This document shows, in pieces, positions 5,694-23,110 of a stretch of DNA of 64,000 nt (position 1 is its first letter; each line of letters opens with the position of its first letter). Made by a program: the position numbers and the translations under genes. The DNA is from an uncultured Lentisphaerota bacterium. Its GTDB lineage: Bacteria > Verrucomicrobiota > Kiritimatiellia > RFP12 > UBA1067. Location: the NCBI GenBank assembly GCA_946413265.1, contig CAMKJU010000010.1, forward strand, positions 1 to 64,000. The letters are read 5' to 3'. Under the pieces are notes generated by a model. The model was not told the origin of the DNA, did not search any database, and worked only from the letters and a program-made list of their open reading frames with translations.

Positions 5694-5700
5694 GGGGCAT

Positions 5701-5709: not shown

Positions 5710-5713
5710 AAAC

Positions 5714-6640: not shown

Positions 6641-6793
6641 TTGCCTTTCCTTTGGATGTTCTTGCCGCGATCAACGTGCGGCAAGCATCCATAAGCAAAT
6701 CGCGTGCCAAGGCAGGGAATCCCTGAAAATCAAGCGGTTCGGGCAATTCCCTTGCCCGAACCGATCACCGTTTGACCACCACACTGATCAATC
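6641..6793 (-). repeat. Duplicated sigma-54 control module, copy 1
   Basis: About 153 bp matching 7825-7978 at most positions. It holds leader, -12/-24 promoter, a 10-bp perfect palindrome arm pair GTTCGGGCAA/TTGCCCGAAC (6737-6761) and TTGACCA / CTGATCAA half-sites (6772-6791). Confidence 0.85.
6694..6709 (-). promoter_or_regulatory. Sigma-54 promoter B (-24/-12)
   Basis: Minus strand TTGGCACGCGATTTGCTT: TGGCACG-N4-TTGC, an exact consensus match with GG-N10-GC spacing. Start near 6683, giving a ~50-nt leader for the gene at 6633. Confidence 0.9.
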
Positions 6794-6825
6794 CTTGCCC
6801 CCTGCCAATATCAGAGCGGCGGGCT

Positions 6826-7818
6826 TTAGCCCACCCTCTCGCCGCCCTCCCGCACAAGCGCCACGACAATTCCCGCCATAAGCCAAACGACCCCAACGAC
6901 GCCCCCTCCATACGACACAAGCGGCACGCAGGTGTGCAGCATCGGTGGCACGAGCCCGAAATACGCCGAATATCCACAGGCCGCCATCAAAATGATGAAC
7001 AATCCCGTTACGGCTACAAACACCTTCTTTGCCGAACTCCCCGCACGACGACAGCAGCAGGCCAGCGCCGCCGCGAACATCCCGAAGAAGGCAAGCACAA
7101 ACGCATTGAACCACTTCCCGAACACGAGTGCCGCCGCGAACGGCATGGAATACGAGCAACGCCCGGGCATTGACACCTGCCGCAGCACCTCTTCGTTTCC
7201 CGAACACCAATGCGCCTCGCGCATCGCCTCTTGAGAAGCATCCTGCGCCCATTCGCGCAACATCACCTCGTCAGGAGAGGTGGCCTCCACGGACTCGCGG
7301 CCAAAGATTCGCGCCATCCCTTCACGGCCATCGAGCGTCCAGAGCGCAAACGCGCCCGCCAACACCACGGCAACAACCAAAAGCATGCCCAACGCACTGC
7401 GACTTGGAAACTTTTCCGCAAGCCACGCCAGCATCAGCGCCACAGCCAATGGGCAAAAGACGAGCACATTCAACTGCACCGCCCCCACGCGCACATAGAG
7501 GTTATGGCCCACCTGCGGGTAACAGATCGCGATGACGAACAGCGCCAGCCATCCCAAGGCCAGCCACGGCGCGGCCTTCATCCAGCGCCGCCATCCCAGA
7601 ATCAGTCCAAACGCGAAGGCCGAAAACCCGATGCCGAGCCAAACGGCCTGACGCTTGAGCATCCAGTGCTCGCCCGTCCGCTCCGTGAAGCTTGCCGCAT
7701 CAGGGCAGTACCACAGAAACACCAGTCCCATGACGCTTAATCCCGCCAGCGAGAGCAGAACGCCCCACGCCCTTCCCGGCATCACCGCCGTCAACCACTT
7801 CGCGACTTGCTCTTTCAC
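6826..7818 (-). CDS. Divergent SEDS-family (FtsW/RodA-like) membrane protein
   Basis: 330 residues with ~8-9 hydrophobic segments. W-M-L-K-R-Q-A-V-W-L-G (~52-62) matches the F-x-x-x-Q-x-x-W block of SEDS proteins. NLYVRVGAVQLNVLVFCPLA (~105-124) aligns with the R-W-I-x-x-G-x-x-x-Q-P-S-E block, and the C-terminal PLVSYGGGVVG matches the PxxSYGG signature. It is shorter than FtsW (~370-400) and lacks the P-S-E pattern, so glycosyltransferase activity (peptidoglycan polymerisation) is uncertain. It is the only gene directly behind sigma-54 promoter C, which points to an envelope-related role for the regulon. Confidence 0.72.
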   Translation of the reverse strand: MKEQVAKWLTAVMPGRAWGVLLSLAGLSVMGLVFLWYCPDAASFTERTGEHWMLKRQAVWLGIGFSAFAFGLILGWRRWMKAAPWLALGWLALFVIAICYPQVGHNLYVRVGAVQLNVLVFCPLAVALMLAWLAEKFPSRSALGMLLVVAVVLAGAFALWTLDGREGMARIFGRESVEATSPDEVMLREWAQDASQEAMREAHWCSGNEEVLRQVSMPGRCSYSMPFAAALVFGKWFNAFVLAFFGMFAAALACCCRRAGSSAKKVFVAVTGLFIILMAACGYSAYFGLVPPMLHTCVPLVSYGGGVVGVVWLMAGIVVALVREGGERVG

Positions 7819-7824: not shown

Positions 7825-7978
7825 TTGCCTTTCCTTTGGATGTTCTTGCCGTGATCAACTCGCGGCAGACATTCATAAGCAAATCGCGTGCCAAGGCAGG
7901 GAATCCACCGAAAATCAAGAGATTCGGGCTATTCCCTTGCCCGAACCGATCAACTCCTGACCACAACACTGGTCAATC
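7825..7978 (-). repeat. Duplicated sigma-54 control module, copy 2
   Basis: Near-identical to 6641-6793, including the leader, promoter, TTCGGGC/GCCCGAA arms (7923-7945) and half-sites CTGACCA and ACTGGTCAA (7957-7976). Confidence 0.85.
7878..7893 (-). promoter_or_regulatory. Sigma-54 promoter C (-24/-12)
   Basis: Minus strand TTGGCACGCGATTTGCTT, identical to promoter B. Predicted start near 7867, about 50 nt before the SEDS gene. Confidence 0.9.
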
Positions 7979-8093
7979 TCTGCCCCCGTATGAGCCTTGG
8001 GCACTTCCCCACCACTATCGAAGCGGCGGACCTAGTACGCCTTTCCGTCAATATCGGTATGACGAGCTTAGTCCGCCCGGCATGTAGATCACG

Positions 8094-8642
8094 TCATCGC
8101 TGTTTAATCTCTTCCAAAAGTTCTGGAGGTAACGGATCGTAGCGCATACTCTCGTAGAGATCAGAAGAACGACTTTCTAATGCTTGGGGCACTGTTGGCA
8201 CATTAAAACGCGTCAGATAAAAACTTTTCCCATCAGAACGCGTCTCGTAAATAGTGTCTTCGCCTTCTATCAGAGCGAATCCCCCAATTCCCTCTTTCTC
8301 TTCCAGAAACGACTTCACCAATTGTCGCGTCCATATCGACCCAGAAACCATTTGGAAATCCTTGGGGATGGAGAAGTCTTTAAGTTCTGGGTCTGTTGCG
8401 ATAAATGCGAAATCGACCTCACTCCCTTCCGGGACAAAGTCGAATTGATGACGCCACCATCCCCAGAAATCGTCATCGAAACGCTGAAAGTCATGGCCTC
8501 CTGACGGAATCAAATCCAGTTTTGGCCCCTGTCCCTCAATTTCAAGCAAACGATAGGTAGCAACCTTCCCTCCCTGAACAAGAAACAGAAAGGTGAATTG
8601 CTCCGGCCGTTTATCCTTTCCCGCTCGCTCGCTCTCGTTCAT
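8094..8642 (-). CDS. Hypothetical protein, last gene of the Hsp70/HerA operon
   Basis: 182 residues, acidic, rich in Phe and Trp (FDDDFWGWWRHQFDF), with alternating beta-like stretches (FTFLFLVQGGKVATYRLLEI). No signal peptide or membrane segment, no family recognised. Start overlaps the stop of the upstream small gene by four bases (ATGA), so it belongs to the operon that starts at 20216. Confidence 0.7.
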   Translation of the reverse strand: MNESERAGKDKRPEQFTFLFLVQGGKVATYRLLEIEGQGPKLDLIPSGGHDFQRFDDDFWGWWRHQFDFVPEGSEVDFAFIATDPELKDFSIPKDFQMVSGSIWTRQLVKSFLEEKEGIGGFALIEGEDTIYETRSDGKSFYLTRFNVPTVPQALESRSSDLYESMRYDPLPPELLEEIKQR

Positions 8643-8902
8643 TTCACCGACTTCTCCGCCTTATGGATACCTTCTTGGAAGACCTTGAATTTCGCCTCCG
8701 TGATTGCTCGCTGCTCTTCAAAGTCCCTTGACAGCAGGGACTCGCCCTTCGTCAAAGGCACCACATGGTCTGGCGTTGGCGTAGCGACCTTAAGCGTTTC
8801 AGGATTTGTTGACATTGACGATCCTTTTTTTCTGGTTGTCTGTTCTGTCTTTTTTTCACCGATAATGCTACCAATGCTATCGATAAAAGAGAAAAAGCCC
8901 AT
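8639..8902 (-). CDS. Small protein with MGFFSFI N-terminus
   Basis: 87 residues from ATG 8902 with GGAGGG upstream. The N-terminal MGFFSFIDSIGSIIGEKK is an amphipathic/hydrophobic helix closely resembling MGLFSFIGSCIGSLFSG of the next gene upstream; the remainder is charged and helical. Function unknown; the shared N-terminus suggests a common membrane or partner docking element. Confidence 0.65.
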   Translation of the reverse strand: MGFFSFIDSIGSIIGEKKTEQTTRKKGSSMSTNPETLKVATPTPDHVVPLTKGESLLSRDFEEQRAITEAKFKVFQEGIHKAEKSVK

Positions 8903-8923
8903 GATTTTCAACCCTCCATCAGG

Positions 8924-9655
8924 TCATGCGAGTTGCACCGCCGAAGCCTCGCCGGCCTCTACGGGCGGCTTGTAGTTGTTGAGATTCGTTTCAACCTGTG
9001 AAATCGGCATGCCGCCATTTTTCTCGTTCTCAGCAAACGCCGCCTTCAGTTTTTCGTTATTTGCCGAAGACAACGTCCCTCCCGCCAAATAGGTCGCGAA
9101 CACTCCGGCGTCGCGCAACCCGCTATTGCTCATCGCCGTCAGGACCGTCTTCATGTTTTCCGAACTCATCCCACCTTTAAAACCAGCCTCAAAAAACTCC
9201 ATCGGGACTGCCATCTTCACTTTTTCCTCAATTGCCTTTTGCTCAATTCCAAGGCCGATCGCCGTAGCCGCCATTAGTTCCGCAGGATTGTTTTTCTTTA
9301 TCTCCTCGAACTTCGCCTCATCAAATGGCGCCTCCTGCAGCGCCTTGATAAAGGCGTCGGTGGATTCAAAGTCATCTCTCTTTATATTCGGATTCTGCCG
9401 TGCCCGTTCCCCCAGTTCGTCAGGTTCCGTCTTCTCGGGAACAATCCCCAAAATCTTTGCAACCTCGCTGACGATTCGTACAATCCCTTCAAATATTGCC
9501 TTGCCGACCTTGATGGCAATATCCAGAATAGGCTTGGTAATCGGCCCCATCATAGGGCCAAGTACAGGGATCTTTGAGATGATGGAAGATGCAGCTTTGC
9601 ATGCTCCAGAGAATAGACTGCCAATGCAGCTTCCGATGAATGAGAAGAGTCCCAT
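8924..9655 (-). CDS. Hypothetical protein with hydrophobic N-terminal third
   Basis: 243 residues. Residues 1-72 are a run of amphipathic, Gly/Ile-rich helices (MGLFSFIGSCIGSLFSG, then ISKIPVLGPMMGPITKPILD), which could associate with membranes; the C-terminal two thirds are a soluble helical region with repeated-looking segments. GAAAGGA precedes the start. No family recognised. It lies in the operon with the ATPase and Hsp70-like proteins. Confidence 0.65.
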   Translation of the reverse strand: MGLFSFIGSCIGSLFSGACKAASSIISKIPVLGPMMGPITKPILDIAIKVGKAIFEGIVRIVSEVAKILGIVPEKTEPDELGERARQNPNIKRDDFESTDAFIKALQEAPFDEAKFEEIKKNNPAELMAATAIGLGIEQKAIEEKVKMAVPMEFFEAGFKGGMSSENMKTVLTAMSNSGLRDAGVFATYLAGGTLSSANNEKLKAAFAENEKNGGMPISQVETNLNNYKPPVEAGEASAVQLA

Positions 9656-9674
9656 GGACTTTTTCCTTTCTTTT

Positions 9675-9803
9675 TTAGTTTGTTGATGATTTGTTTGTTT
9701 GAAAAATCACTTGCCGTCCGGACCCACCTCCATATCGGCAACAGGCCACAGTTTCCGTAAAGAAACTAAGCGTGGCTATTATGGGAGCGATAAATGGTAA
9801 CAT
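9675..9803 (-). CDS. 42-residue hydrophobic small protein
   Basis: MLPFIAPIIATLSFFTETVA begins the protein, followed by CCRYGGGSGRQV; it ends 20 bp before the next gene. A strong AAGGAG lies 7 nt before the ATG, and it starts 12 bp after the ATPase stop, filling an otherwise empty 159-bp gap. A hydrophobic N-terminus is shared in style with its two small neighbours. No homology can be claimed. Confidence 0.5.
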   Translation of the reverse strand: MLPFIAPIIATLSFFTETVACCRYGGGSGRQVIFQTNKSSTN

Positions 9804-9814
9804 GGTTATTCTCC

Positions 9815-12800
9815 TTAAGAAAGTTTATCAAAAGTCTTGATTGTTTTTATGTACTTCTTGAATTTATTGGTGAAGGAACGATTCTTTCGCTCCTCTAAAT
9901 AGCCGGCGAGCGCGTCTGTCCGATCTGGCGCACCAGATTCTGCAGGGAATGGGACGAGGTAGATATCGCTCAGTGAAGTTAATGCCAAGTCCTTGCCGAA
10001 AAGAGAAATCATTTTATCTATCTGCCTAAAAATGTCGCCCTCATCCTCTCCTTCTGCTCTTTCCTCGTTGAAGAAATTTCGCAGATCAACATTCTGAACA
10101 TGGGCAATGTACTTCTCGAGCATTTCAATTGACGGCCGTTTTTTCAAGGTCTCAAGCCCAGGGAATACCCCGCGCTTCCACGTGGCGGCATAATAGTCAA
10201 GTGCCTGGCAACGCAACTCTTCATCAGGAATTTCTTCGGATGAAGACGTGCTCAACCCTTCCACCTGCTCCACATTCACATGCATCGCCTTGGGCCAGTT
10301 GCCAGAAAAGACGATTGCGTGCCCGATGTCGAGATTGGAGAGAAAATCACGCTGCTCTTCGGACAGCGACATCGTCGATCCAATGACGTCCTTGTCATCC
10401 TGCGCGAAAAGGCGATGGACGATCTTGATGTTGGTGTTCTTAAGGACATCTGGCGTAAGCTTGTTCGGAATCTGGTCGGCGATGATCATGGATTCGCCGT
10501 ACTTGCGGATTTCCGCCAGCATGTCGGCAAACATCTCGACTGCATGCTTCTTGTTGGGATTATCGCCAGGCTGGAATTTGGTCATCAAACGATGTGCCTC
10601 TTCGACAAGCGTGATATGCTCTACCTTCACGTTTTTCTTGCCGGCGCGCCCCTCCCTAAACCGGCGCTTAATCGCCACAAGTAGATTCGTCAGAACGAAA
10701 CCAATGATCAGCGCCTTCTCGGAACCATTGCGCACCTCCTCTAGTTCGAGGATGACATTACGATCCAGAAGATCGTCAAAGTCTATTGACCGCTTGCAGT
10801 TCAGCATCATGCCCTTCGCGCCGACAAGCAGCCCTTGCAACCGCGCGCGAATGCTGCCAAGGTATTCATCATAAAGGCGCTCGTCAAACCCCTGGCGTTT
10901 TATGACATCCGGCATGACGTCCATAACGTCCCCAAGCGTCGGAAACGCATACACGCCCGGCTCAAACGCCTTGGAGCCTGGGAAATAGCGGTTCTCGTCC
11001 GTCTTGTCATTCCAGCCGTATTTCCTGTAGCATTCGTAAATAGCCTGCTCGATCAGCTGCGGAATGGCAGCCTCCATGTCAAACGCAGCCGTGATGCTTG
11101 CCATCAACATGTCAACGCGGGAGGAAATCGTTTCACCTTCGGTAAACTCAAGCGGATTCAGGCGGAACGGTGCCACCTTGTCATTTCCAAGCGTGAAGAT
11201 GAGGATGTTGTCCTTGGGAGCCCCCTCGAACCTGTCATATTTCCGCAAAATACGGTATTCGGTTTTCGCCGGCTCGATCACTAGGAAATGCCGGTTTGAC
11301 TCACAGAGGATCCGCTGGCAGGTCGTTGTCTTGCCGCTACCTGTCACGCCGGCGACGAACATGTGGCGATCAAATTCTTCCGCGTCAAGATCGACGGGGA
11401 TGGACGTCTTCACGCCGCCCTGAACAAGCGTGCCCAGCCGCATCGGACGTTTCGCATCGCCTTTGACGTTAAGGCCGAACTCCACCTCCTCGCGCAACCG
11501 AAGCCCAATCACTTCCTTCTTCGGCAGACCGGCGATCAGACTCAATTCCGTGGCGGACATCCAATCGCCGCCATAGAACCCCAGCGCGACAATTTTCCCG
11601 TTAGCGTCTTGGCCAAGATGGAGGCATTTCGAGTGCGCCGTTGCCGCGTAGCAATCTTCGACAGTATCCTCACGATAATGAACAAGCAGAGGTTGCTGAA
11701 AATTCTTCAGCGTCCACAGACGTTCCGCCGTACCAGACTTTCTGTCCGGAGAAAGGCGGATCGCGTGCAAGGGCGACCGATTCCCGACCTCTCCCGAAAA
11801 AATGGACTTAACGACGTTCTCCAGCTTGGTCAGCACAGGTTTCTGCCTGGCAAAGAGCAATGTGGAACTAACGAACAAACCCTTACCTTTTGCGCAGTCA
11901 AGGCGAGGAAATACCACATCATCGAAATATTTCGTCCAATCCTGCATGCTCTTGCTGACAATGTCGAACGAGAGCGACATGCTGCTTCCCACCTGGCTAC
12001 CGCTCTGCCGCGCCATCTGCTCCATCACGCTGCGCGTGACCTGCACGGACTCTCCTGTCGTGTAAGACGTCGAATCCGTTCGTCCTTTTGTTTGCGAGCC
12101 AGATTCGTTCGTACCGTCATCGTGATGATGACCTCCGGAGCTAGGCGAGTACCCCTCACTATGGTTCTTCCCCTTTGTGATCTGGCTGGACGCATTCCAA
12201 GCAATGCTGTTAGCCGAACTCTTGTTTTTCCCTTCCGCAGTTGACTCTTGCGTTCCGTTTGTAAACGTTGACCCTTCATTCTTGCTTTCATTCTGCCCTG
12301 TCTGACACTGCTGACGGGACTTCAACATGATCCAACGGTAGATCTCGTCCAAAGCGCGTTCCAACGCGACGACTTCATGCATGTCATTGATAGGCTTGGC
12401 AACCACCATCAACCCGAAATCGTCCTCGTGGCCATCGCTTTCGGTCCTGACATTGTCGTCTGGATCATGGTTGAGCATGATGTCAACAAGGCGGTCAACG
12501 CCCTGGAAATCCTTCTTCTCCTTGTCTTTCGTTACGCCGGGCACCCCCTCCATGCAGGAAAATAGCAACTTATGACCATCTTCCTCGCCGCCATCGGCTA
12601 TCAATTGGCGAATGCGCTTGAGTTCCTTGGCCTCTACGGCCTCCACGCGGCTACCTCGGAAGTTTCCACGAAGGCTTGGAGCGAGAATCTTGTCAGCAAT
12701 TTCATCTAGATTTATCCCGTTCTGGGGTTCCTGCAAATCGGCTGCCACGCCGAAATAGAAACTAACCTTTGAACACTCCCCTAAAATAAGATAGACGAGA

Positions 12801-13042
12801 TTGACGCCGCGAATCTTCAAACTGGCGAATACGTTTTCAAGCGCTTCCTGCCGTGGCGACTCGTCCTCGTCGTCAAACGTGATTTCCTTCACGTGAAACA
12901 ACTTGAGCATACCGGGCGGCAACGCCTTGACGAGCGGCTCTTGGCATCTCGTCTGCAATGCGTAGTCGGCAGAAAGCCAGTCAAATCCCGGCATCGCGAC
13001 TTCCATCTTATCGCCAATTTTCTTTTTCGGTTCTTCTTTCAT
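9815..13042 (-). CDS. HerA/FtsK-type P-loop ATPase
   Basis: 1075 residues. N-terminal ~240 residues unrecognised alpha/beta; 245-335 is a Ser/Asn/Thr/Gly low-complexity linker; the C-terminal half is a HerA-like motor. Walker A GVTGSGKTTT (~565-574) is followed by FLVIEPAKTEYR. Walker B with the catalytic Glu pair is HITLVEEAHRLM (~809-820). IIADQIPNKL (~853-862) fits the sensor strand, and IVHRLF (~874-879) the conserved Arg region of HerA hexamers. Such ATPases pump DNA or other polymers through a ring. There is no nuclease (NurA) next to it; instead the operon holds two Hsp70-like proteins. AGGAG precedes the start. Confidence 0.85.
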   Translation of the reverse strand: MKEEPKKKIGDKMEVAMPGFDWLSADYALQTRCQEPLVKALPPGMLKLFHVKEITFDDEDESPRQEALENVFASLKIRGVNLVYLILGECSKVSFYFGVAADLQEPQNGINLDEIADKILAPSLRGNFRGSRVEAVEAKELKRIRQLIADGGEEDGHKLLFSCMEGVPGVTKDKEKKDFQGVDRLVDIMLNHDPDDNVRTESDGHEDDFGLMVVAKPINDMHEVVALERALDEIYRWIMLKSRQQCQTGQNESKNEGSTFTNGTQESTAEGKNKSSANSIAWNASSQITKGKNHSEGYSPSSGGHHHDDGTNESGSQTKGRTDSTSYTTGESVQVTRSVMEQMARQSGSQVGSSMSLSFDIVSKSMQDWTKYFDDVVFPRLDCAKGKGLFVSSTLLFARQKPVLTKLENVVKSIFSGEVGNRSPLHAIRLSPDRKSGTAERLWTLKNFQQPLLVHYREDTVEDCYAATAHSKCLHLGQDANGKIVALGFYGGDWMSATELSLIAGLPKKEVIGLRLREEVEFGLNVKGDAKRPMRLGTLVQGGVKTSIPVDLDAEEFDRHMFVAGVTGSGKTTTCQRILCESNRHFLVIEPAKTEYRILRKYDRFEGAPKDNILIFTLGNDKVAPFRLNPLEFTEGETISSRVDMLMASITAAFDMEAAIPQLIEQAIYECYRKYGWNDKTDENRYFPGSKAFEPGVYAFPTLGDVMDVMPDVIKRQGFDERLYDEYLGSIRARLQGLLVGAKGMMLNCKRSIDFDDLLDRNVILELEEVRNGSEKALIIGFVLTNLLVAIKRRFREGRAGKKNVKVEHITLVEEAHRLMTKFQPGDNPNKKHAVEMFADMLAEIRKYGESMIIADQIPNKLTPDVLKNTNIKIVHRLFAQDDKDVIGSTMSLSEEQRDFLSNLDIGHAIVFSGNWPKAMHVNVEQVEGLSTSSSEEIPDEELRCQALDYYAATWKRGVFPGLETLKKRPSIEMLEKYIAHVQNVDLRNFFNEERAEGEDEGDIFRQIDKMISLFGKDLALTSLSDIYLVPFPAESGAPDRTDALAGYLEERKNRSFTNKFKKYIKTIKTFDKLS

Positions 13043-13053
13043 TTTATAAACTC

Positions 13054-16000
13054 CTAATCAAGTCTAACGGTTTTTGCCTTCTTTTCGTCCACCTGTTTCT
13101 CGCTTTTTGCGACAGTCCAGTCGAATTCATTTGCCGACTTTACGCGGATGTACAAGCTGCCACCGCAATCATTTGGATTGATCGTACAGACATGTGTGAA
13201 TGTCTTGCGAATAGACAATTCACCCGTACCCGCCTCCGGCAAATCAGAATAGTTTATCTCTATCGTCTTACGGTCTCCCACCACCATGACCTTGTGCCAT
13301 TCTCCTTGTTTCGAGGCCATTGTGAGAATTGGCACGAACAGACCCTTCCTTTGCTTGCCGACATAGAATCGAAAAGCAATGTGACCCGTATCGTCTTGAT
13401 TCTTGTCGATGACCTTTATGTTGCCTCCCTCGCGGCCCATCACCAGTCCGAATGCCACGCCGGTCTTTCCGGTAGGCTGCTCGATTCCGTCCTTCGGCTC
13501 AATCGTACGCTCCTTCATCTTGGCGTTCGCTTCAGCCGTTCCCAATGGCGGGAACAGCTCGAACTTGTCTTTATAGGCGTCGTGATTGTCTTTCTCAAAC
13601 GCCTCGATGCATTCCTTGAACAATTGCGTCACGATTGGAGACTTGCTCGAATTGCCGGCAAGGAAAATCGAAATCTTCTCAAGATCCTTTGGCACCTCGG
13701 GTTCGCGGAACGCCTCCTTCAGCCGGAAGAAGAAATTCTTCACGCCACGGTCTATCCGCGCCCGAATCCTTTTTTCCAGCTCATCCGCATCAAATTCCAG
13801 TTCAATTCCTGACTTCTGCTCTCCAGACCGATCAAACAACGTTAGCTTGAGCTTCCCCCCCTGAAGGGCTTCTTTCTCCCCCCCCTCCCAAAGGGGTCTC
13901 AATGCTTCCATCACCTGACTCATGTTGATCTTCGCCTCGGGCGAACTGGCCACGAGACCTTCCTCGCCCTCAAACGACGTGTTCTCGCGTTCAAACGGAC
14001 GAGAGAACGTAATGCCCTCTCGAAGGAGCATTTCCTTGTTCCGCTTGAAAATGTCAAACGCCAGCAACTGGAGGATGTTCTCGCCGCCCAAGAATTTGTC
14101 CCCCGACGGACGAAAATGCTCAAGCACGTAATCATATCCCTGATCGGCCTCGTCATCAGTGACATCCCGATATGTTCCATAGTCGAAATCTGTCGTTCCT
14201 CCTCCGAAGTCAAAAACGCCGTAGAAACACTTCTGCTTTCCTTCCGGTCTGAAGCCATATTCGCTCAGCGCGCAAAGCGAATAGGCTGCCGGCTCGCTGG
14301 CGCCAAAACGGACATAGAAGTTCTTCATCAACTCCTGGTCGTTCAAGACGGATTCTGGAAGCGACTTGCGGATCCCCCGTTCGAAGCTCTCGCGCAACCG
14401 TACCAGAATGTCCTTGTCATACGTAACCGGATAAGACAACTCATAGCGCAGGAATATCCCGTTGCGCATGTGGTTGATGTTGAGGCCAAGATAATAGGCG
14501 TAGATTTCAATAGGGTCTGGGCGATCCGCCTCCGTCAGTTTCCCGTAAGGCGGCAAGATAAACTCCTCGCCTCTCTTGTCCTTGATCCTGAGCGTGTCGC
14601 TTCCACCGGCCCACTGCTTCAACTCAGAGAGGAAAGACACGTACAGGTCACTTGTACCCGCCACCGCATCATGGAGCATGTCCGCCGCCGTATGGGAAAT
14701 CGTCAAGTCGCACCATTTCGTGCGCGGTCTTCCATCGCGCGCCCGATACGCCTCTAGGAAGGTATTGAAGTCGATGAACTGCATCACCGTCGGGTTTTCA
14801 TAGTCCGACGCCTCGGACGGCAGCTCCTCGAAATTCGCATGCCCCACGCGCATCGGCTTAAGCGGCTCCTTGTCAACGTAACGTACTACTGTCGTACTTT
14901 TCGTACCGAAGTCAATCCCGACAACCCCTTCGGTCTTGACATCATGCCGAGGATTCCGGGCGTAAAAAGCACAAGGTATGGACACCGTTTTCCCCGAACC
15001 CAATCTATCCACATTCTCAGCCCATAGATCCCAATGCCCGCAATTCGGATCTGGACTAGTCAACCGTTTTTCCTCGTAAGAGGGACGGACATCCGCCCGA
15101 TCCACGTCACAGGCCAACAAACGTTCCGCAACGTAAACCTGCTCTGACTGCTCTAGCTCCTCCCCCTGCAGCTTGAAATCTCCATCTTCTTCAAACCTGA
15201 TTGCCTGCGACCAGAACTTGTCCGAGAAATCCAACACGCGATTCTCAAATGAAAAACAGTCAATATATTTTCGAATCAAACCATGAAGGACATTGAACAC
15301 TTTGTTTTTTGCGAACTCTTTCGGCATAACCTCGAAGACGCTCCACAAGGCCAACAGTGTCGCTGGCGACAAGTTCAAGTCAGAGAGCGGGACGAACTTG
15401 TCACTCAACCGGAAAATGGGAAGTGTTGTAGCGTTAAAGGATGGGGTATCGGTCGCAAGCCTCTCTCCATTACGACAAGCGGCATAAAGGAACAACCCTT
15501 CTAGATCTTTATTGCTCGCCGTAGGGAAAAGGGCATGAAAAAAAGCCCGAGGGACTTGCGCCGTTACATCATTTTGAAGTTTACACGATGGAGGATGGGA
15601 ATAATCTTTTCCTATCGTAAGACACTTGACGCCCACATCTTGAAACGGAGAAGATGCCGAACAAAGGATTTTCGCAAGTTCTTCTTTAGTCGGCAATACA
15701 CCTTCATATTTTCCCGAGCAGAGGGGAAAGGTTTGACTGGGTTCAAAATTCGGGTACGAACCATAATATTGGGCTTCAGGAATCTCATTTCTCGCTTGCA
15801 CGATGGCATTGATCTCGGCAAAATAGTAACCTCCACTGCAAAGTTCAAACCATCCATTATTGACCTTAAGCGTATCCGCAATCGTCGCCAGGCAATTATT
15901 CAAACGTCTGCGCCAGATGGGTTCAACGAGCAATTTGCGTTCATGATCTGTAGGCACGAAAGCTATCGAATTGACGCGAACCGTCTTCGATTCCGTAACG

Positions 16001-16110
16001 AAGATTCCATTGGTCACAGTGCCGTTGGTCTCCGTGGACCCAGGGCTCCCCCATCCGTCCCATTCCTGGCTGAGGTCTTGCCGATACGTTTTTTTCTTTT
16101 TTTTGCTCAT
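13054..16110 (-). CDS. Divergent Hsp70/actin-fold ATPase 1
   Basis: 1018 residues from ATG 16110. N-terminal ~390 residues are unrecognised. The ASKHA domain begins with phosphate-1 VVGIDFGTKSTTVV (~397-410), phosphate-2 is YGVFDFGGGTTDFDYG (~630-645) and the adenosine motif is IFLAGNSSKSPIV (~815-827). This is the order found in Hsp70. A normal substrate-binding domain and lid are not recognisable; the C-terminal ~180 residues look beta-rich. Residues around GHWDLW and YARNPRHDV are shared with the paralogue downstream of the GrpE-like gene. It is likely an ATP-driven chaperone-like or scaffold protein acting with its operon partners. Confidence 0.82.
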   Translation of the reverse strand: MSKKKKKTYRQDLSQEWDGWGSPGSTETNGTVTNGIFVTESKTVRVNSIAFVPTDHERKLLVEPIWRRRLNNCLATIADTLKVNNGWFELCSGGYYFAEINAIVQARNEIPEAQYYGSYPNFEPSQTFPLCSGKYEGVLPTKEELAKILCSASSPFQDVGVKCLTIGKDYSHPPSCKLQNDVTAQVPRAFFHALFPTASNKDLEGLFLYAACRNGERLATDTPSFNATTLPIFRLSDKFVPLSDLNLSPATLLALWSVFEVMPKEFAKNKVFNVLHGLIRKYIDCFSFENRVLDFSDKFWSQAIRFEEDGDFKLQGEELEQSEQVYVAERLLACDVDRADVRPSYEEKRLTSPDPNCGHWDLWAENVDRLGSGKTVSIPCAFYARNPRHDVKTEGVVGIDFGTKSTTVVRYVDKEPLKPMRVGHANFEELPSEASDYENPTVMQFIDFNTFLEAYRARDGRPRTKWCDLTISHTAADMLHDAVAGTSDLYVSFLSELKQWAGGSDTLRIKDKRGEEFILPPYGKLTEADRPDPIEIYAYYLGLNINHMRNGIFLRYELSYPVTYDKDILVRLRESFERGIRKSLPESVLNDQELMKNFYVRFGASEPAAYSLCALSEYGFRPEGKQKCFYGVFDFGGGTTDFDYGTYRDVTDDEADQGYDYVLEHFRPSGDKFLGGENILQLLAFDIFKRNKEMLLREGITFSRPFERENTSFEGEEGLVASSPEAKINMSQVMEALRPLWEGGEKEALQGGKLKLTLFDRSGEQKSGIELEFDADELEKRIRARIDRGVKNFFFRLKEAFREPEVPKDLEKISIFLAGNSSKSPIVTQLFKECIEAFEKDNHDAYKDKFELFPPLGTAEANAKMKERTIEPKDGIEQPTGKTGVAFGLVMGREGGNIKVIDKNQDDTGHIAFRFYVGKQRKGLFVPILTMASKQGEWHKVMVVGDRKTIEINYSDLPEAGTGELSIRKTFTHVCTINPNDCGGSLYIRVKSANEFDWTVAKSEKQVDEKKAKTVRLD

Positions 16111-16139
16111 CACAATGATCCTATCTTTGAGCCGTCATC

Positions 16140-19115
16140 CTACCTCGGCAGTTCCACCTCTTGCGGATTACGCAGAAACTTTCCTTCTTTCGCATCGGCT
16201 TCACTCGCCACGACCGCGAATTCAAACGAATGCGAAGATTTGGGACGAATGACGACAATTCCACCACCATAATCCTGTTCAAGTCGAGCCGAGACATAAC
16301 GCTCTGCCGGCGCAACTTTCGTCATGACGCGCGCATCCGTTGAATACCAGAACTCAAGGGATGGGACATCTGCTCCGCGGAACCTGCGCCAACTGCCGTC
16401 TGACTGTGGCGTCAAGACGGGATGAAATTCGTCGCGACGGTTTCTGCCGACGTAAAAGTTGAACTCGCCAGACCCCCCATCGTCTGTCTGGGGCTTTTCC
16501 CCAATGAACTTGAAACCACCGCCTTCACGTCCCAAGAGCAGCCCCCACACAACACCGGTCTTACACGTCGGCACCGCATCAGCATTTGCGTCACGACCGC
16601 CTTCTATAATCATCGGCCCCTTTGTCGTTATGACGTTCTCTTGGCGCATTTCCTTCTCGAATGCGGAGATCGCCTTTTCAAATGCGTCATGCACGTAACG
16701 CGAACGGCACGAATTACCGGCCAGCAGCACATTCACGGACTTAACAGACTCCAGCTTCTTTGCCAGCGGCTTGCTCTTGTATATTCCCTTCAGCGCAACG
16801 AAGAAGTTGTTCACCCCCTTCTGTATTCTCTTCTCTATCCATTCACCTAATTTGTCTGCATCAAGCAGCAATTCCACACTTAGCTGGTCGCCATCATCGT
16901 TGAACACATTCAACTTGACCTTACCGCTACCGAACTTGTCTTTCGTCTCCTGATCGTCCGGATGCTCCCAAAGCGGACGCAGCACCTCCATCAACTGCCG
17001 GATGTTGGTTTCAGCCTCAACCGTTTCGCTCACATACTTGCCCTCGTTGGCCAGAGGCTTTTCTGGTTTTTCGTATGGTGCCGCAAAAGACACTTTCTGC
17101 GAGAACATCCTTTCACGGTTCTCCACGAAAACAGAATAGGCCATGTCCCGTAGGATATTCTCTCCGCCCAAATAGCGGTCGCCATATCCAATGGCAGGGA
17201 AACGATCAATGACATAATCGTAATCGGCGTCCTCATCCGACGGCATCGTGCAAAGTCCAAAATCAAAGTCTGTCGTTCCGCCGCCGAAATCGAACACACC
17301 ATAGAACACCTCCTTGTTCTTGGGTGTCGGCAGAAGCTTGTACCTATCGAGCGCACAAACCGCATAAGCGCCTGGTTCGCTGTTTCCATAGCGAACGGAA
17401 AACAGCTTCATGCTCTCAGCATCATTCAGTACCGTAGACGGCAGTGATTGGCGAAGGCCTTTCTCAAAGCTTTTGAGAATCCGTCCCTTGGTGGCCCCGT
17501 CGAATGTCACAGGATAGGAAAGCACGTAATTCAGGAAAATGCGGTTATACATGTTGTTAAGACTGCAACCGACGTAATACGCATACAGTTCAATCGGGTC
17601 GACAGCATCTTCCGCCTTGTCCTCGTACGCATCAAACGTAATCAGAGGTCCTCTCTTGCCTCCAACCGGATGCTGATTACGAGCGAACATTTTTCGCCCC
17701 GATATGGCCCATTGCTTCAGCTCCGGGGCGAAAGAGGACATGTTTTCCGCATCCGTTCCTTCCAACATCGCGTTACGGGCAACATGCGAAACGACAAGAT
17801 CAGCCCAATGCGTGTCTGGCCGCCCTTTTTTTGCCCTGTAGGCGGAAAGGAACGTGTCGAGGTCAATAAAATGTATTACAGTAGGATTCTCATATCGATC
17901 AAGGCTTCCCGACCCCAAACCTGACTCATTGGACAATTCCTTTGTCTGCCCCACAGGAAACGGCGTGATGCCCACACCTCCATCCATGAACGCAACAGCC
18001 GTACTCTTTGTGCCGAAATCAATAGCCACGACTGCGTTCTTTCGTACGTCCTGAAGCGGATTTCGCGCATAAATTGGCTGCTTCAGCGAAACAGGAATCG
18101 TGACAACGTCTTTTGCATGCTGTTGCTCTGCCGGCCACAAGTCCCAGTGCCCACGTTTGATGTCCGTCAGCCAGTTCTCTGCATATTTGTCACCGCCAAA
18201 CCGCCGCTCGTCCACACCCAGAAGATCGTTCAGGAACTTCTCGGAGGTCACGCTTTTCGGCCTGCGTTTTCCCGATAGCACTTCCTTGACAACTGCTTCT
18301 CGACTTACTCCTTCAACCGCAACACCCTTTCTAAAATCCACCAAGACAGCATCGTCATTCATGGCATCATCGTCATTAAACCAGGAGGGATGCTTTCGGT
18401 ATAAATTAGCGAACTTCCGATAATCACCCGTGAGCGTTGCCGTATTAGGAACAAAGCCATCTTTAAGAAACGACACCAATGTCTTACTTGCATGTCGATG
18501 TACAGGGATATAAAAATCCTCCGGAGAATTTTCCTTTTTGGCAATAAGACTGAAAGAACTATTAAACTTCCACTGCCCAGACGCCGATGGTTTTTTAACC
18601 GTAAAGACTTTCCCGCCAACCATTCGCATATAGTCGCCAGGAAATTTCCTGCAAAATCCCTTCACTAAATCATTAAATGTGGACATGAAAGTCTTCAACC
18701 ACGGTCCCAAGGCCAGCTCCCAGCGAACTCCAGAAGTCCATTGCCTTAGTTGTCCCTTAAGTGAATCCCATTGCTTAGGATCAGGAACGAATATCCCTTC
18801 CTGAAGATCATAGAGACAATCCTTTCCTTCAGAAGCAAACCACAGACAGGAATCGCGCGCACCAACAATTGCTTTTGAAAACTCCTTCACCAATGCCTGG
18901 TATTCACTTTTAAGCGCATGGAGAACCCCTTCTCGGAACTCCCTATCCACCATCTCCTGCTCAAAGGGGACTTCCACCTGTTGAAGAACGAGAAACGATT
19001 GCTCAGAATCTGGCGGATTTCCACATAGCTCCGCAGAAGGCTTGACATTCTTGGCCGTAATACGCCGTGGAGTTTTTTCAATGTGCAACGATTTGTTCTT
19101 TGCTGGCTTGGCCAT
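16140..19115 (-). CDS. Divergent Hsp70/actin-fold ATPase 2
   Basis: 991 residues from ATG 19115 (GAGG upstream; the in-frame TTG at 19136 overlaps the preceding gene). Same architecture as the protein at 13054-16110: N-terminal ~360 residues unknown, GHWDLWP and YARNPLQDV linker, phosphate-1 VVAIDFGTKSTAVAF, phosphate-2 YGVFDFGGGTTDFDFG, adenosine VLLAGNSCRSRYV. N-terminal halves are much less alike than the ATPase cores, so the two probably recognise different partners. The pair arose by duplication and may form a heterodimer. Confidence 0.82.
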   Translation of the reverse strand: MAKPAKNKSLHIEKTPRRITAKNVKPSAELCGNPPDSEQSFLVLQQVEVPFEQEMVDREFREGVLHALKSEYQALVKEFSKAIVGARDSCLWFASEGKDCLYDLQEGIFVPDPKQWDSLKGQLRQWTSGVRWELALGPWLKTFMSTFNDLVKGFCRKFPGDYMRMVGGKVFTVKKPSASGQWKFNSSFSLIAKKENSPEDFYIPVHRHASKTLVSFLKDGFVPNTATLTGDYRKFANLYRKHPSWFNDDDAMNDDAVLVDFRKGVAVEGVSREAVVKEVLSGKRRPKSVTSEKFLNDLLGVDERRFGGDKYAENWLTDIKRGHWDLWPAEQQHAKDVVTIPVSLKQPIYARNPLQDVRKNAVVAIDFGTKSTAVAFMDGGVGITPFPVGQTKELSNESGLGSGSLDRYENPTVIHFIDLDTFLSAYRAKKGRPDTHWADLVVSHVARNAMLEGTDAENMSSFAPELKQWAISGRKMFARNQHPVGGKRGPLITFDAYEDKAEDAVDPIELYAYYVGCSLNNMYNRIFLNYVLSYPVTFDGATKGRILKSFEKGLRQSLPSTVLNDAESMKLFSVRYGNSEPGAYAVCALDRYKLLPTPKNKEVFYGVFDFGGGTTDFDFGLCTMPSDEDADYDYVIDRFPAIGYGDRYLGGENILRDMAYSVFVENRERMFSQKVSFAAPYEKPEKPLANEGKYVSETVEAETNIRQLMEVLRPLWEHPDDQETKDKFGSGKVKLNVFNDDGDQLSVELLLDADKLGEWIEKRIQKGVNNFFVALKGIYKSKPLAKKLESVKSVNVLLAGNSCRSRYVHDAFEKAISAFEKEMRQENVITTKGPMIIEGGRDANADAVPTCKTGVVWGLLLGREGGGFKFIGEKPQTDDGGSGEFNFYVGRNRRDEFHPVLTPQSDGSWRRFRGADVPSLEFWYSTDARVMTKVAPAERYVSARLEQDYGGGIVVIRPKSSHSFEFAVVASEADAKEGKFLRNPQEVELPR

Positions 19116-19125
19116 CAATCTACCC

Positions 19126-20007
19126 TCACTTGACAACTACGAGAGATTTACGAAACACCTTTTTGTTCGTAGCGTACAACATACCGGGCCACACGACCTC
19201 TTGAACCTTGCCAGAAACAGGGCTTTCCGGCGTGGAAGAAAGGCAGGCTGTGTCAAAACTCGCCCCACAGGAGACCTGCTGCAATATCCATGTCTCTCCC
19301 AATGTCTCATTAATCAAGTTGAAGAAAAACATGAAAATACCTAGCAACTTGTCTCGAGATTCCTTTAAGCGGCCACGAACAAAATCATTCTTGCAATAGT
19401 CCCAGAAATCACGGATATTATCGGGTTGCGCTCCGCTTACAACAAACGACCACATGTCACTCTCGTTGAAATACCCTTTCAAATTCTTGCGCAACGTCGC
19501 TGGCAATGACAGATAAAGGTCATATATGGACTGGAACTTGGATACTGAACCCTCAAGACTGTTAATTTTCATTTCTAACGGCTTCACCTTGGCTTCAAGC
19601 TGCTCGTAAAGGCGACGAAAATCCTCAAGTTCTTTTTTCTCCTGCTCACTCGCCGCAAGCAAACGTTCTAACCGATTCTTCTCTGATTTCAGCTTTACAA
19701 ACTCTTTCTGTTGGGTGGCCAACTCCTTTTGCAACGCTGCGACCTCGGCATCATGCGAATCGGCAACATGTGAAGAAGAACCCACACCTTCTCGGCTCGT
19801 AGACCAAGACACAGACCTGCCTTTTAAATCAGATGTAGACACAGAAGTACCCATTGACACGGAAGTGCCTTCAAATTTGTTTCTAATCTTGGCACATACC
19901 TCTGGATCATCCAGTAAGCGCAATAAATCCGCCTTCAATAAATCCGTCTTAGAAACTTTTCTTTTATCCATAAACATGTTCCTTAGTTTTTTAAGAATCC
20001 AACACAT
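19126..20007 (-). CDS. GrpE-like coiled-coil protein (candidate nucleotide exchange factor)
   Basis: 293 residues from ATG 20007, sharing one base with the upstream stop (TGATG). Residues ~80-160 are a long coiled coil (LQKELATQQKEFVKLKSEK and on). A helical bundle with NLINETLGETWILQQV follows. The C-terminus VVWPGMLYATNKKVFRKSLV fits the GrpE beta-wing pattern V-x-x-G-x-x-x-x-x-x-K/R-V-x-R-x-x-x-V-x-V. Order (coiled coil, helix bundle, beta wing) is that of GrpE, the Hsp70 nucleotide exchange factor, and the gene precedes two Hsp70-like genes. Residues 40-70 are Ser/Thr-rich. Family assignment is by pattern only. Confidence 0.6.
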   Translation of the reverse strand: MCWILKKLRNMFMDKRKVSKTDLLKADLLRLLDDPEVCAKIRNKFEGTSVSMGTSVSTSDLKGRSVSWSTSREGVGSSSHVADSHDAEVAALQKELATQQKEFVKLKSEKNRLERLLAASEQEKKELEDFRRLYEQLEAKVKPLEMKINSLEGSVSKFQSIYDLYLSLPATLRKNLKGYFNESDMWSFVVSGAQPDNIRDFWDYCKNDFVRGRLKESRDKLLGIFMFFFNLINETLGETWILQQVSCGASFDTACLSSTPESPVSGKVQEVVWPGMLYATNKKVFRKSLVVVK

Positions 20008-20216
20008 CACAGTTTCTCCCACTTGCTCCAACGGAAGCAGGTGCTGGCGCCGCCGAACTTGCGACCGTCCCAGGCGCGGCAGTTGACAGCGGGCAGAACT
20101 CCGCCAATGCGCACGAACTTGGGGTCCGCGCCCACGAAAATGAGTTTCCGCGCGCCGCTCCACCAGCGGCACGTCGCGCACTTCTTCTGCGCTATCGGTA
20201 TGTCAAGCTGCGCCAT
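20007..20216 (-). CDS. Small four-Cys protein, first gene of the Hsp70/HerA operon
   Basis: 69 residues from ATG 20216 with AAAGGAAACGAA upstream. Contains KKCATCRWWSGARK, a central VNCRAWDG and a terminal TCFRWSKWEKL: four cysteines with conserved-looking Trp/Arg neighbours, probably a zinc-binding or disulphide fold. The stop overlaps the GrpE-like start. No function can be assigned. Confidence 0.65.
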   Translation of the reverse strand: MAQLDIPIAQKKCATCRWWSGARKLIFVGADPKFVRIGGVLPAVNCRAWDGRKFGGASTCFRWSKWEKL

Positions 20217-20256
20217 TTCGTTTCCTTTCGCCTTCCACCGCCCGGCGCGCCAAAAC

Positions 20257-20391
20257 GCGGCGTCCCCTGCGGTGGTTCTTCGGAGGCGACTGGTATGCCC
20301 GGACGGGAAACGCACGCAGGGGACGCCGCAATCACGGAATCCTCTTCGTTCACGCCATCCTGTCCGAATGATTACCAGTCTTTCCGAAGAA
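20257..20391 (-). ncRNA. Structured 5' leader with interlocking inverted repeats
   Basis: Two inverted-repeat pairs cross each other. Pair A is a perfect 15-bp match (20257-20271 with 20315-20329, core GGCGTCCCCTGCG). Pair B is 20276-20295 with 20373-20391 (TTCTTCGG and GACTGGTA arms). Along the transcript the order is B', A', B, A, so the RNA can form a pseudoknot or two mutually exclusive hairpins. It fills most of a ~183-nt leader between the promoter at 20406 and the first start codon at 20216. Confidence 0.5.
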
Positions 20392-20405
20392 CGGCGTTGC
20401 GTTGA

Positions 20406-20414
20406 AGTGTAGCA
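20406..20414 (-). promoter_or_regulatory. Extended -10 promoter of the Hsp70/HerA operon
   Basis: TGC-TACACT on the minus strand, same form as the promoter at 42262. Predicted transcript start ~20399. Confidence 0.55.
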
Positions 20415-20996: not shown

Positions 20997-21593
20997 CTAC
21001 TCGCCGTACTGCGCTTCGACGGCGGCGATCATGCGGCCCACCCGGTATTTGATCTGCCGGAGCGCGTTGATTGTAATGCCCAGGCGGGCGGCGACCTCGT
21101 CTGGCGGTTCGTCGGCGAGCGCGTAGGCCCGATAGGCCGCCACCGTTCGGGCGTCAAGCATGGTCCGCGAAAGGACATGCTCAACGGCTGCAGCATGGCG
21201 CGCTTCCCGAAGGCGCATGTCCACGACCTCCGCCGCATTGGGTGTCTCGGAAAGGAGCTCCACGTCATCTGCGGGGACAATCTCCCCCGCCCCGCGCGCA
21301 AGTGTCCGACGGTGCCTGTCGATCAGGAGACGGCGTACCATCGTTCCGAGATAGGCACGAAAACGACCTTTCTCCGGACGGTAGATTCCTGCACGCAACA
21401 CATTCACCAAACGCACGAAGATTTCCTGTACCACGTCGTCCACATCCGACGGCGCGACATCTCCACGCGCGACGATGAACGCGCGGATCACCGGGGTATA
21501 CAGTTCGACGAAGCGCGCCCACTCGGCCGAGTCGTCGCCGTTGGCATATTCCGCGATCTTGCGGAGAATCGTCTGTGGGGTATCGGGAATCAT
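20997..21593 (-). CDS. ECF-type RNA polymerase sigma factor
   Basis: 198 residues. Region 2 is visible in DVDDVVQEIFVRLVNVL and FRAYLGTMVRRLLIDRHRR; region 4 is a C-terminal helix-turn-helix (PPDEVAARLGITINALRQI). Length fits sigma-70 family ECF factors of the long-region-2 type common in Planctomycetes and Verrucomicrobia. The start overlaps the stop of the kinase gene by four bases (ATGA), so kinase and sigma factor are made together; phosphorylation or kinase-linked control of the sigma factor is a reasonable inference. No anti-sigma factor is adjacent. Confidence 0.88.
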   Translation of the reverse strand: MIPDTPQTILRKIAEYANGDDSAEWARFVELYTPVIRAFIVARGDVAPSDVDDVVQEIFVRLVNVLRAGIYRPEKGRFRAYLGTMVRRLLIDRHRRTLARGAGEIVPADDVELLSETPNAAEVVDMRLREARHAAAVEHVLSRTMLDARTVAAYRAYALADEPPDEVAARLGITINALRQIKYRVGRMIAAVEAQYGE

Positions 21594-23104
21594 CGTGGTT
21601 CGTGGCTCGTGATCAGTGGGTAATCAGGCACGACACGGCGAGTGAACGGATCGTTCGGGGGCCAGGTCTTGCCCCAGCCCGTGGCGGAAGGCGTAACGTG
21701 GTTGACGAGGTTGGTGGGCGTGCGCACGTAGATGCGCGTGCCGAACGGCGTCGGCGCGTCGCCGCCGAAATAGACGTGCTGGAGATTGGAACAGCCGCCG
21801 AATGCCGCCTGCCCCACGTCGAGGAGGCCCTTGCCGAACCGCACCTCGCGCAGAGCGAAGCAGTCGCCGAACGCATAGTCGTCGAGGTGTTTCAGGGAAT
21901 CGGGGAGCGTCACCGTCTCCAGTTTCGGGCAGCGGAAGAAAGCCGACGCGCGCACGACGGAGATGCCCTCCTCCACCGTGACGTGCCGTAGGTTCGGCCA
22001 GCGCTCGAACTGGTTGTGCCAGACACGCCCCGCGGCGGCCCGCACGACGAGCGCAGTCACGGCGCCGGGATCAACGCCATGCGCATCCCCCGGATGCGAC
22101 ACCCACAATACGCCCGGCGGCGGCGGCGAGCCGCCAGGATGGCGGCTCTCAATAAAGCGGCTTCCCAAGAACGCCCAGGACACGGCCGCCAGGATCACCG
22201 CGGCAGTCACACCCCCGGCAAGCCACCACATTCGCATGCGCCGTCCCTTCGTACGCGCCTTTTCCACCACCGTGCGCGTCTTCTGGTCGTCGGAAAGGAG
22301 ACGCGGCAGGTTCGTCTGCCAGAACGGGTCGAACATCAGGAGCAGGTCGAACGGCGAAGTCCGCCTCCGACCATTCTTTTCAGTCTGCGCCGTCGGCGGC
22401 TCGTACCACATTCCCGTGAGGAGGCGGAAGAAGAGGACGCCGAGCGCGTACCAGTCCGCCGCCGCAGTGGCGGCCCGCCCGGCACGCACCTCGGGTGCAA
22501 GGTAGAAATACGTGCCCATCACGGGGCGCGTGCCCGTGGTCTGCCCTTCGATGAACGTGGTCGTCACGTCCAGCCGACCGCGCAAGCCGTCGTCGAAGAT
22601 GCGCGAGATGCCGAAGTCGGAGAGAACGGCATGTCCTTCCGCGTCGATTAAGACGTTTTCCAGCTTCACGTCGCGATGTACCACGCCATGCGCATGGAGA
22701 TACGTCAATTCGTCGGAAAGTTCGTTGAACCAGCGTAACGCCTGTTCGTGCGAAATGCCGCCGCGCCGACGCGCATCCTCCAGCGTCTCCGGCTCGCCCT
22801 GCGCGTTCAGCACCAAGTCCATCGTGAACCAGGGTTTCCCGGTCGCCTCGCCCATGCCGACGTCCCGCACCTTCACGAGATGCGGATGGTCCAGCACGGC
22901 CAGGATTTTCGCCTCGGCATGGAAACGTTTCTCGAGAAACTCCTGGTTTTTCGCACCGCCCGTGAAGAGCTTCAGCGCGAGATGCGCTCCGGCAGCGTCC
23001 TCCACCTCGTACACCGTCCCCATGCCGCCATGTCCCAGCGGACGCACAATGCGGTAAGCTCCAATGTTACCAATGGCATAAGAGTCTGTCGCCGCTTTTT
23101 CCAT
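21590..23104 (-). CDS. Transmembrane Ser/Thr protein kinase with LRR ectodomain
   Basis: 504 residues. Kinase motifs: LGHGGMGTVYEV (Gly loop), ALKLF (Lys), HGVVHRDVKLENVLI (catalytic loop), SDFGIS, and YLAPE. One membrane helix (WWLAGGVTAAVILAAVSWAF, ~290-310) follows. Beyond it, ~380-460, lie BspA-type leucine-rich repeats (CPKLETVTLPDSLKHLDDYA, CFALREVRFGKGL). The repeat region would face the periplasm and could bind a ligand or a BspA-like partner. The ATG at 23104 is chosen because a -10 element ends exactly 6 nt before it; 23110 (MRMEK) is the alternative. Operon partner: ECF sigma factor. Confidence 0.9.
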   Translation of the reverse strand: MEKAATDSYAIGNIGAYRIVRPLGHGGMGTVYEVEDAAGAHLALKLFTGGAKNQEFLEKRFHAEAKILAVLDHPHLVKVRDVGMGEATGKPWFTMDLVLNAQGEPETLEDARRRGGISHEQALRWFNELSDELTYLHAHGVVHRDVKLENVLIDAEGHAVLSDFGISRIFDDGLRGRLDVTTTFIEGQTTGTRPVMGTYFYLAPEVRAGRAATAAADWYALGVLFFRLLTGMWYEPPTAQTEKNGRRRTSPFDLLLMFDPFWQTNLPRLLSDDQKTRTVVEKARTKGRRMRMWWLAGGVTAAVILAAVSWAFLGSRFIESRHPGGSPPPPGVLWVSHPGDAHGVDPGAVTALVVRAAAGRVWHNQFERWPNLRHVTVEEGISVVRASAFFRCPKLETVTLPDSLKHLDDYAFGDCFALREVRFGKGLLDVGQAAFGGCSNLQHVYFGGDAPTPFGTRIYVRTPTNLVNHVTPSATGWGKTWPPNDPFTRRVVPDYPLITSHEPR

Positions 23105-23110
23105 GCGCAT

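Follow-up and report, generated by a model that had tools for sequence, protein, structure and literature searches.

The subject of this study is an operon at positions 8094–20216, minus strand, of a 64,000-nucleotide stretch of DNA from an uncultured Lentisphaerota bacterium (contig CAMKJU010000010.1; the whole stretch is called the window below). It encodes a Cys-rich leader protein, a GrpE-like protein, two Hsp70-like ATPases of approximately 1000 amino acids (aa), a HerA-type motor and the small proteins P5, P6 and P7. We use the name Hsp70L for the family of the Hsp70-like ATPases and Hsp70L-1 and Hsp70L-2 for the copies in the window (P0002 and P0003). HerA, P5 and P7 form a conserved block, partnered by Hsp70L together with the GrpE-like protein, by dynamin-like GTPases or by an FGE-domain protein. 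Tentatively, and with a confidence a little short of even, we regard the operon as a modular conflict system that is exchanged horizontally and is most likely directed against phages, in which Hsp70L would be the switch, HerA the motor and P5 a membrane-acting effector.

A scan of approximately 85,000 species genomes with Hsp70L profiles yielded 355 relatives, of which the best 80 loci, the closest ones, were studied (their gene calls are mechanical and the loci are not independent of each other). They come from Bacillota, Pseudomonadota, Campylobacterota, Lentisphaerota, Cloacimonadota and Spirochaetota. In the first pass a member of the HerA homologue cluster was seen at 29 of the 80 loci. 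Co-occurrence was counted at the 56 best-scoring loci with at least 6 kb of downstream sequence. HerA is present at 22 of these, so that the HerA block belongs to about two fifths of the best-covered Hsp70L loci. Where HerA is present, P5 was found 22 times, P7 20 times and a GrpE-like gene 21 times, compared to 0, 0 and 29 times at the 34 loci lacking HerA. Because the genes co-occur across phyla, a chance assembly of the operon is untenable. An earlier note on this DNA, made from the sequence alone, had proposed a new system and asked whether its core genes occur together in other genomes, which they do. Bacillota and Lentisphaerota share the order GrpE-Hsp70L-HerA-P5-P7 (for instance, on the Lentisphaeria contig carrying the sister protein of Hsp70L-2, as in the window), which is rearranged in Vibrionales. 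In most examined loci, from many lineages, the five genes lie only a few to some tens of bp apart. The same note had put paired giant Hsp70-like ATPases into the name of its candidate system. Two or more were found at 15 of the 80 loci, most loci having one, as does the same-genus genome G490 discussed below; fixed pairing was therefore dropped as a diagnostic feature. On the Hsp70L tree the association with HerA requires 17 changes, with at least nine changes forced by supported branches, and HerA must therefore have been gained or lost repeatedly. The system is patchy (one of 145 sampled genomes of the order, two of 388 of the phylum) and is carried on plasmids in some relatives.

The operon fills a chromosomal slot, which is bounded by an NtrC-like gene (4194–5852) and a kinase gene (21590–23110) both here and in same-genus genomes. 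The NtrC-like gene is 88–95% identical among the sister genomes. The slot of G490 holds genes for a GrpE-like protein, one Hsp70L, HerA, P5 and P7; that of G099 for HerA, P5, a P7-like protein and dynamin-like GTPases; that of G052 for HerA, P5, a P7-like protein and an FGE-sulfatase-domain protein; and in G491 three dynamin-family proteins are found and HerA is missing. The HerA proteins of the sister slots are 44–50% identical to the one in the window. Since the kinases of the window and G490 share 73% identity, the HerA proteins 50% and the Hsp70L proteins 34–36%, the slot contents were replaced by distant homologues and did not diverge locally. The operon has a GC content of 46–54%, compared to 58–66% over most of the window, and at third codon positions (GC3) of 0.47–0.64 versus 0.72–0.84 in four flanking genes. 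Thus, it is indeed AT-richer than its flanks, and the transfer which the earlier note had suspected from composition is shown as horizontal exchange by GC and GC3 together with the slot comparison. No tRNA gene, a possible marker of an integration site, lies in the window. Beside the slot we noted a direct repeat of about 160 bp (6641–6802 and 7825–7987, 86–93% identical, spacing 1184–1185), whose copies bracket an FtsW/RodA-like gene (6826–7818); related copies exist in G099. The kinase that flanks the slot has very large families of related Ser/Thr kinases in this genus, with 34 matches in the genome of the window and more than 100 in G099 and G102.

At the head of the slot stands the Cys-rich leader gene (20007–20216, minus strand like all genes described here), whose product of 69 aa begins with MAQLDIPIAQKKCATCRWW and had been recognised already in the earlier note. 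Its protein is 94–99% identical in four same-genus genomes, always at the slot head and twice in G099, and the codon differences are mostly synonymous (for instance, 14 synonymous versus three nonsynonymous). Similarity breaks off directly after the leader stop codon, where different operons begin. RNA folding reveals a long GC-rich hairpin upstream of the gene (20257–20329, minus strand, GGCGTCCCCTGCG...CGCAGGGGACGCC; −47 kcal/mol, z = −4.05), which is present in the window, G490, G052 and G491 and missing at both G099 leaders. Leader gene and hairpin could act as a co-regulator or as a recombination anchor. More divergent leader copies (43–50%) occur elsewhere in the genus. A scan for promoters and terminators gave signals no better than in shuffled sequences.

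The co-directional and tight arrangement had been described correctly before, with ten genes in a stretch reaching to 20414. There are, however, nine at most, because eight genes are credible and a further open reading frame (ORF) of 42 aa is doubtful, and the first gene starts at 20216. The junctions between leader and GrpE-like gene and between the latter and Hsp70L-1 are overlapping or abutting; 26 bp separate Hsp70L-1 from Hsp70L-2, and 11 bp separate Hsp70L-2 from HerA.

Hsp70L-2 (13054–16113, 1019 aa) consists of a variable N-terminal domain (approximately residues 1–395), an ASKHA ATPase (approximately 395–905) and about 110 C-terminal aa, which is shorter than the substrate-binding domain plus lid of DnaK. 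By its ASKHA motifs and the tree Hsp70L-1 (16140–19115, 991 aa) is a divergent second Hsp70-like ATPase; it shares 41% identity with Hsp70L-2 over 701 aa and forms a long branch. Hsp70L-2 itself groups with the Lentisphaeria protein L008 as its sister (SH-aLRT 99). The phosphate-1 (IDFGTKST), phosphate-2 (FDFGGGTTDF) and adenosine (LAGNSSKS) motifs hardly vary among 42 relatives, and a PDB search with the family profile finds Hsp70 nucleotide-binding domains (E = 7.6e-5), which confirms the two ATPases of about 1000 residues as ASKHA proteins. The cut-off of PF00012 is not reached: P0002 and P0003 give no match at E ≤ 1, and Hsp70L is absent from the PF00012 matches of its own genome. Neither protein has a convincing match to a Pfam, NCBIfam, PADLOC or PHROG family. 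The N-terminal third varies. Among the 42 proteins scanned by Pfam, Lcl_C was found in two, WD40 in one and a biotinyl-lipoyl domain in two, and the alignment shows WD40-like repeats in L061 and, for L010, a start resembling a lipoyl domain. For the N-terminal region of a Bacillota member a confident structure model was obtained (predicted local distance difference test, pLDDT, 90.4), for which PDB contains no fold at E ≤ 0.001 and C-type-lectin chains only at E ~ 1; the proposed structural check thus returned a confident fold and no significant PDB match. Since the lectin chains reach only this value, the reading as a C-lectin is based on the Pfam Lcl_C matches in two Acinetobacter proteins. 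No close Hsp70L relatives were found in phage records; a first scan of viral contigs found none and a second one two weak matches. On the IMG/VR contigs L088 and L089 a weak Hsp70L relative of about 630 aa has as neighbours a conserved protein of 1250 aa and three more genes common to both contigs.

The GrpE-like protein (19126–20007, 293 aa) comprises a coiled coil, a helical part and a C-terminal beta-wing-like motif, GxxFDxxxH...G-V...Gy...RxxxVxV. The window protein stays below the cut-off of PF01025, with no listed match, and five of 32 relatives match that family weakly (best E = 0.0016). A first hhalign run with two GrpEs was too weak to use. Against 15 housekeeping GrpEs the C-terminal wing alone aligned, with E = 0.0009 compared to 0.59 for the reversed control and a probability of 22–25%, and a PDB profile search gave coiled coils only among the matches listed. 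A relation to GrpE is therefore weakly suggested and is specific to the C-terminal wing; the description as a GrpE-like coiled-coil protein, already given in the earlier note, is based on this wing motif.

The motor (P0004, 9815–13042, 1075 aa) belongs to the HerA/FtsK superfamily and exceeds the curated cut-off of DUF87 (E = 2.5e-7). Its Walker A motif GVTGSGKTT at residue 565 and the Walker-B-like EEAH at about 814 exist in all members displayed. The Ser/Thr/Gly/Asn-rich insert (approximately residues 245–350), which the note had described as a Ser/Asn linker in a HerA-like motor of just this length, recurs in 27 of 27 homologues with 60–79% Ser, Thr, Gly, Asn and Gln.

P5 (8924–9655, 243 aa) has a hydrophobic N-terminal part of about 78 aa, with a grand average of hydropathy (GRAVY) of +0.89, followed by a hydrophilic C-terminal part, which makes it a candidate membrane-acting effector. 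The same holds for 31 of 31 homologues, in which the N-terminal 65–90 residues have a GRAVY of +0.38 to +1.22 and the C-terminal part is negative. P6 (8639–8902, 87 aa) has, as read from its sequence, the N-terminal motif MGxxSxIgS in common with P5, and a counterpart of 78 aa (MGFWSSIGSAIGS) precedes P5 on an Acinetobacter plasmid (L006). The doubtful 42-aa ORF (9675–9803, MLPFIAPIIATLSFF...) is known from reading the sequence and also starts hydrophobic, so that hydrophobic N-termini in three small proteins are confirmed, for P5 by GRAVY and for P6 and this ORF by inspection. P7 (8094–8642, 182 aa) is a small alpha/beta protein and, judged by its AlphaFold2 model and its co-occurrence, a candidate adaptor. 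The model (pLDDT 79.6) has the element order b-b-b-a-b-a-b, resembling half of an ASKHA/RNase H fold. All Foldseek matches to it are weak (E ≥ 8e-3, mostly glucokinase, NTPDase and Argonaute PIWI) and none is significant, so that the structural check of the small proteins gave a fold for P7 and no significant match. PDB searches gave low-scoring, unconvincing matches for P5 and nothing convincing for P7.

Around the relatives, WYL regulators account, as a raw count, for six of 136 flank proteins at 24 loci and stand directly upstream in several; Type I restriction-modification, GmrSD and HipA genes are other neighbours. On L006, genes for HerA, a P6-like protein, P5, a GrpE-like protein, two Hsp70Ls, HEPN and dynamin proteins follow behind a WYL regulator. 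Further arrangements deserve mention in their own right. On plasmids of Exiguobacterium, Treponema and E. coli (L093–L095) genes for an HNH nuclease and SMI1/KNR4 come after a distant HerA relative, in the latter two with two dynamin-family genes upstream; this is possibly a separate HerA-HNH-SMI1 system. A Helicobacter plasmid (NZ_AP024820.1, L007) carries in one run genes for a GrpE-like protein, a split Hsp70L, a marginal P7-like protein, WXG100-like and HNH-toxin-like proteins, SMI1 and an FtsK-type ATPase, which looks like a combination of Hsp70L with the EssC/WXG100 cassette known from CoCoNuTs. At three loci (L055, L059 and L064) Hsp70L and GrpE-like genes recur in a cluster whose other members lie upstream or downstream of them (e.g. 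L059:18064–19515, L059:12984–14768), with a VgrG/GPD-like spike protein, a further very divergent Hsp70-like protein (L064:4927–7557) and, in L059, a protein with an AHH nuclease domain, possibly an undescribed injection-type system. A contractile system in the window itself was considered and dropped, as tail genes are absent.

A modular defence system is favoured because the constant HerA, P5 and P7, the exchangeable modules, the variable N-termini, the WYL regulators, the plasmids and the restriction neighbours agree with the way in which NTP-dependent conflict systems are organised (PMC7159879). The operon is also without a nuclease in Pfam, NCBIfam, PADLOC and PHROG scans of its proteins. 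In such a system the variable N-terminal domain of Hsp70L would sense an invader- or damage-derived ligand, and its ATP cycle would be the switch, reset by the GrpE-like protein as exchange factor. Hsp70L might then license a hexameric HerA motor, perhaps through P7 as adaptor, and HerA would extrude or insert the hydrophobic P5 into the inner membrane, leading to growth stop or death of the infected cell. Gene conservation, the swapping of modules, the motifs and the composition of P5 are direct observations; we infer sensing, reset, the action of the motor on P5, the membrane damage and the phage trigger, and likewise that HerA works on protein instead of DNA and that P5 is the effector. In its most specific form, as an immune system whose Hsp70 switch has no recognisable substrate-binding domain, carries exchangeable C-lectin-like, WD40 or lipoyl sensors, has its own GrpE-like reset, drives a membrane-active protein through HerA and can have its sensor half replaced by dynamin or FGE modules, the proposal appears rather doubtful. 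Several points weigh against the modular defence system. No phenotype is known for the operon, and because the flank matches lack a control set, an enrichment in defence islands is not demonstrated. The putative membrane activity of P5 is deduced from composition, and the GrpE assignment is weak for the protein of the window. Many Bacillota have Hsp70L and GrpE without HerA, and therefore the pair must have a function independent of the motor. To our knowledge, the HerA proteins known so far are movers of DNA.

One rival is a DNA-targeting defence, in which HerA would translocate or clamp invading DNA, Hsp70L and the GrpE-like protein would assemble or recruit it, and P5 and P7 would be structural. 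The structurally solved close relatives of HerA are all DNA motors, and the HerA-DUF4297, HerA-SIR2 and MADS-like models match the motor domain; however, the operon lacks a nuclease or NADase partner, and the strongly hydrophobic N-terminus of the invariant P5 would be odd for DNA processing, which makes this explanation improbable. The main rival is secretion or effector delivery, with HerA, including its proposed EccE3-like part, being an export motor and Hsp70L/GrpE unfolding and loading P5 and P6 for neighbouring cells. Bell et al. (PMC11090510) compare a similar HerA cassette to ESX EccE3/VirB4 and propose secretion or conjugation, and Hsp70L/GrpE genes adjoin WXG100-like, HNH-toxin-like, SMI1 and FtsK genes on the Helicobacter plasmid and VgrG-like spike genes with an AHH nuclease at L055, L059 and L064. 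But the HerA-type operon comes without WXG100, toxin nuclease, immunity gene or recognised outer channel, its same five genes occur in Gram-positive and Gram-negative bacteria, and the putative EccE3 resemblance of the HerA N-terminal part is taken from the description in that paper; we consider secretion unlikely. A specialised proteostasis or stress module unrelated to conflict would agree with the Hsp70 and GrpE chemistry and with the lone Hsp70L/GrpE pairs of Peribacillus and Lachnospiraceae, whose chromosomal neighbourhoods are conserved. Yet DnaK and GrpE are already encoded elsewhere in the host genome, the system is patchy, found on plasmids and swapped at a fixed slot, and the operon shows neither a DnaJ or protease gene nor a match to the canonical Hsp70 family, so that we give this idea very little credit. 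Among the roles listed in the earlier note, anti-phage defence is thus favoured, effector delivery is less likely but is suggested by the VgrG-like and WXG100 neighbours at some Hsp70L loci without this HerA, and proteostasis is the least likely. If the modular defence system is real, bacterial conflict systems would include one with a chaperone ATP cycle as its exchangeable front end, on a par with dynamin-like GTPases. The same-slot swaps provide a natural experiment separating constant HerA, P5 and P7 from interchangeable parts, and they make the role of P5 directly testable.

An Hsp70-GrpE-HerA operon was not found in the searched literature, which excluded most subscription papers and all of bioRxiv. 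None of the models in PADLOC, Pfam and NCBIfam spans the gene set as a whole, and the PADLOC 2023 models gave HerA/MADS-8 motor-domain matches and coiled-coil noise only, in agreement with the earlier note, which could not name the arrangement. With the HerA-DUF4297, HerA-SIR2 and NurA pairs the operon shares the HerA/DUF87 motor core, but its HerA has 1075 aa, a long Ser-rich insert and P5 and P7 as partners, and no nuclease or NADase family was detected among its proteins. The NCBIfam 'serine-rich protein' NF033849 likewise combines a serine-rich insert with a HerA core (E = 2.2e-33 to P0004); with 114.8 bits compared to a cut-off of 650, P0004 is related to it and not a member. The GAP1-N2 GTPase systems (Kaur et al. 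2020, PMC7159879) also place HSP70 and GrpE in predicted conflict systems with a constant switch and variable modules; these are built on DO-GTPase plus GAP1, contain DnaJ-FNIII proteins, occur mostly in Actinobacteria and Firmicutes, and no HerA is described for them.

Closest are the CoCoNuTs. Their component CnuD is an Hsp70-like ATPase within a predicted defence system, but has degenerate ATPase motifs and is fused to or associated with McrC (PMC11090510), whereas the Hsp70L motifs are near-invariant. Bell et al. 2024 (PMC11090510) report that ATPase cassettes are interchangeable in the extended Type III-A CoCoNuT, the third variant being 'EccE3-HerA' plus a small helical protein, with a HerA insertion of variable length; GrpE is not mentioned there. 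A CoCoNuT-III-A-like plasmid island of Photobacterium damselae (L092) contains a HerA homologue (1046 bits) adjoining a P5 homologue (E = 4e-40), beside DUF2357, a Ser/Thr kinase, PP2C and Csm6. The Hsp70L, GrpE-like and P7 profiles have no match in this island. The window operon has these three proteins and differs further from Type III-A CoCoNuTs in that no McrB-like GTPase, CnuC/DUF2357, CnuH helicase or TerY-P triad is among its proteins; WXG100 substrates and EssC-type multi-ATPases are also absent from it, a WXG100-like protein being seen only in the Helicobacter plasmid relative. Thus, the arrangement, which the earlier note could not name, is not a PADLOC system, but its HerA half is not entirely new, since HerA and P5 occur together also in this island. 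Matched by architecture, not by accessions, HerA with its insertion and the adjacent P5, both homologous to the L092 pair, appear to be the EccE3-HerA cassette of Bell et al., and if our interpretation is correct, this orphan CoCoNuT cassette would be one half of a widespread stand-alone system.

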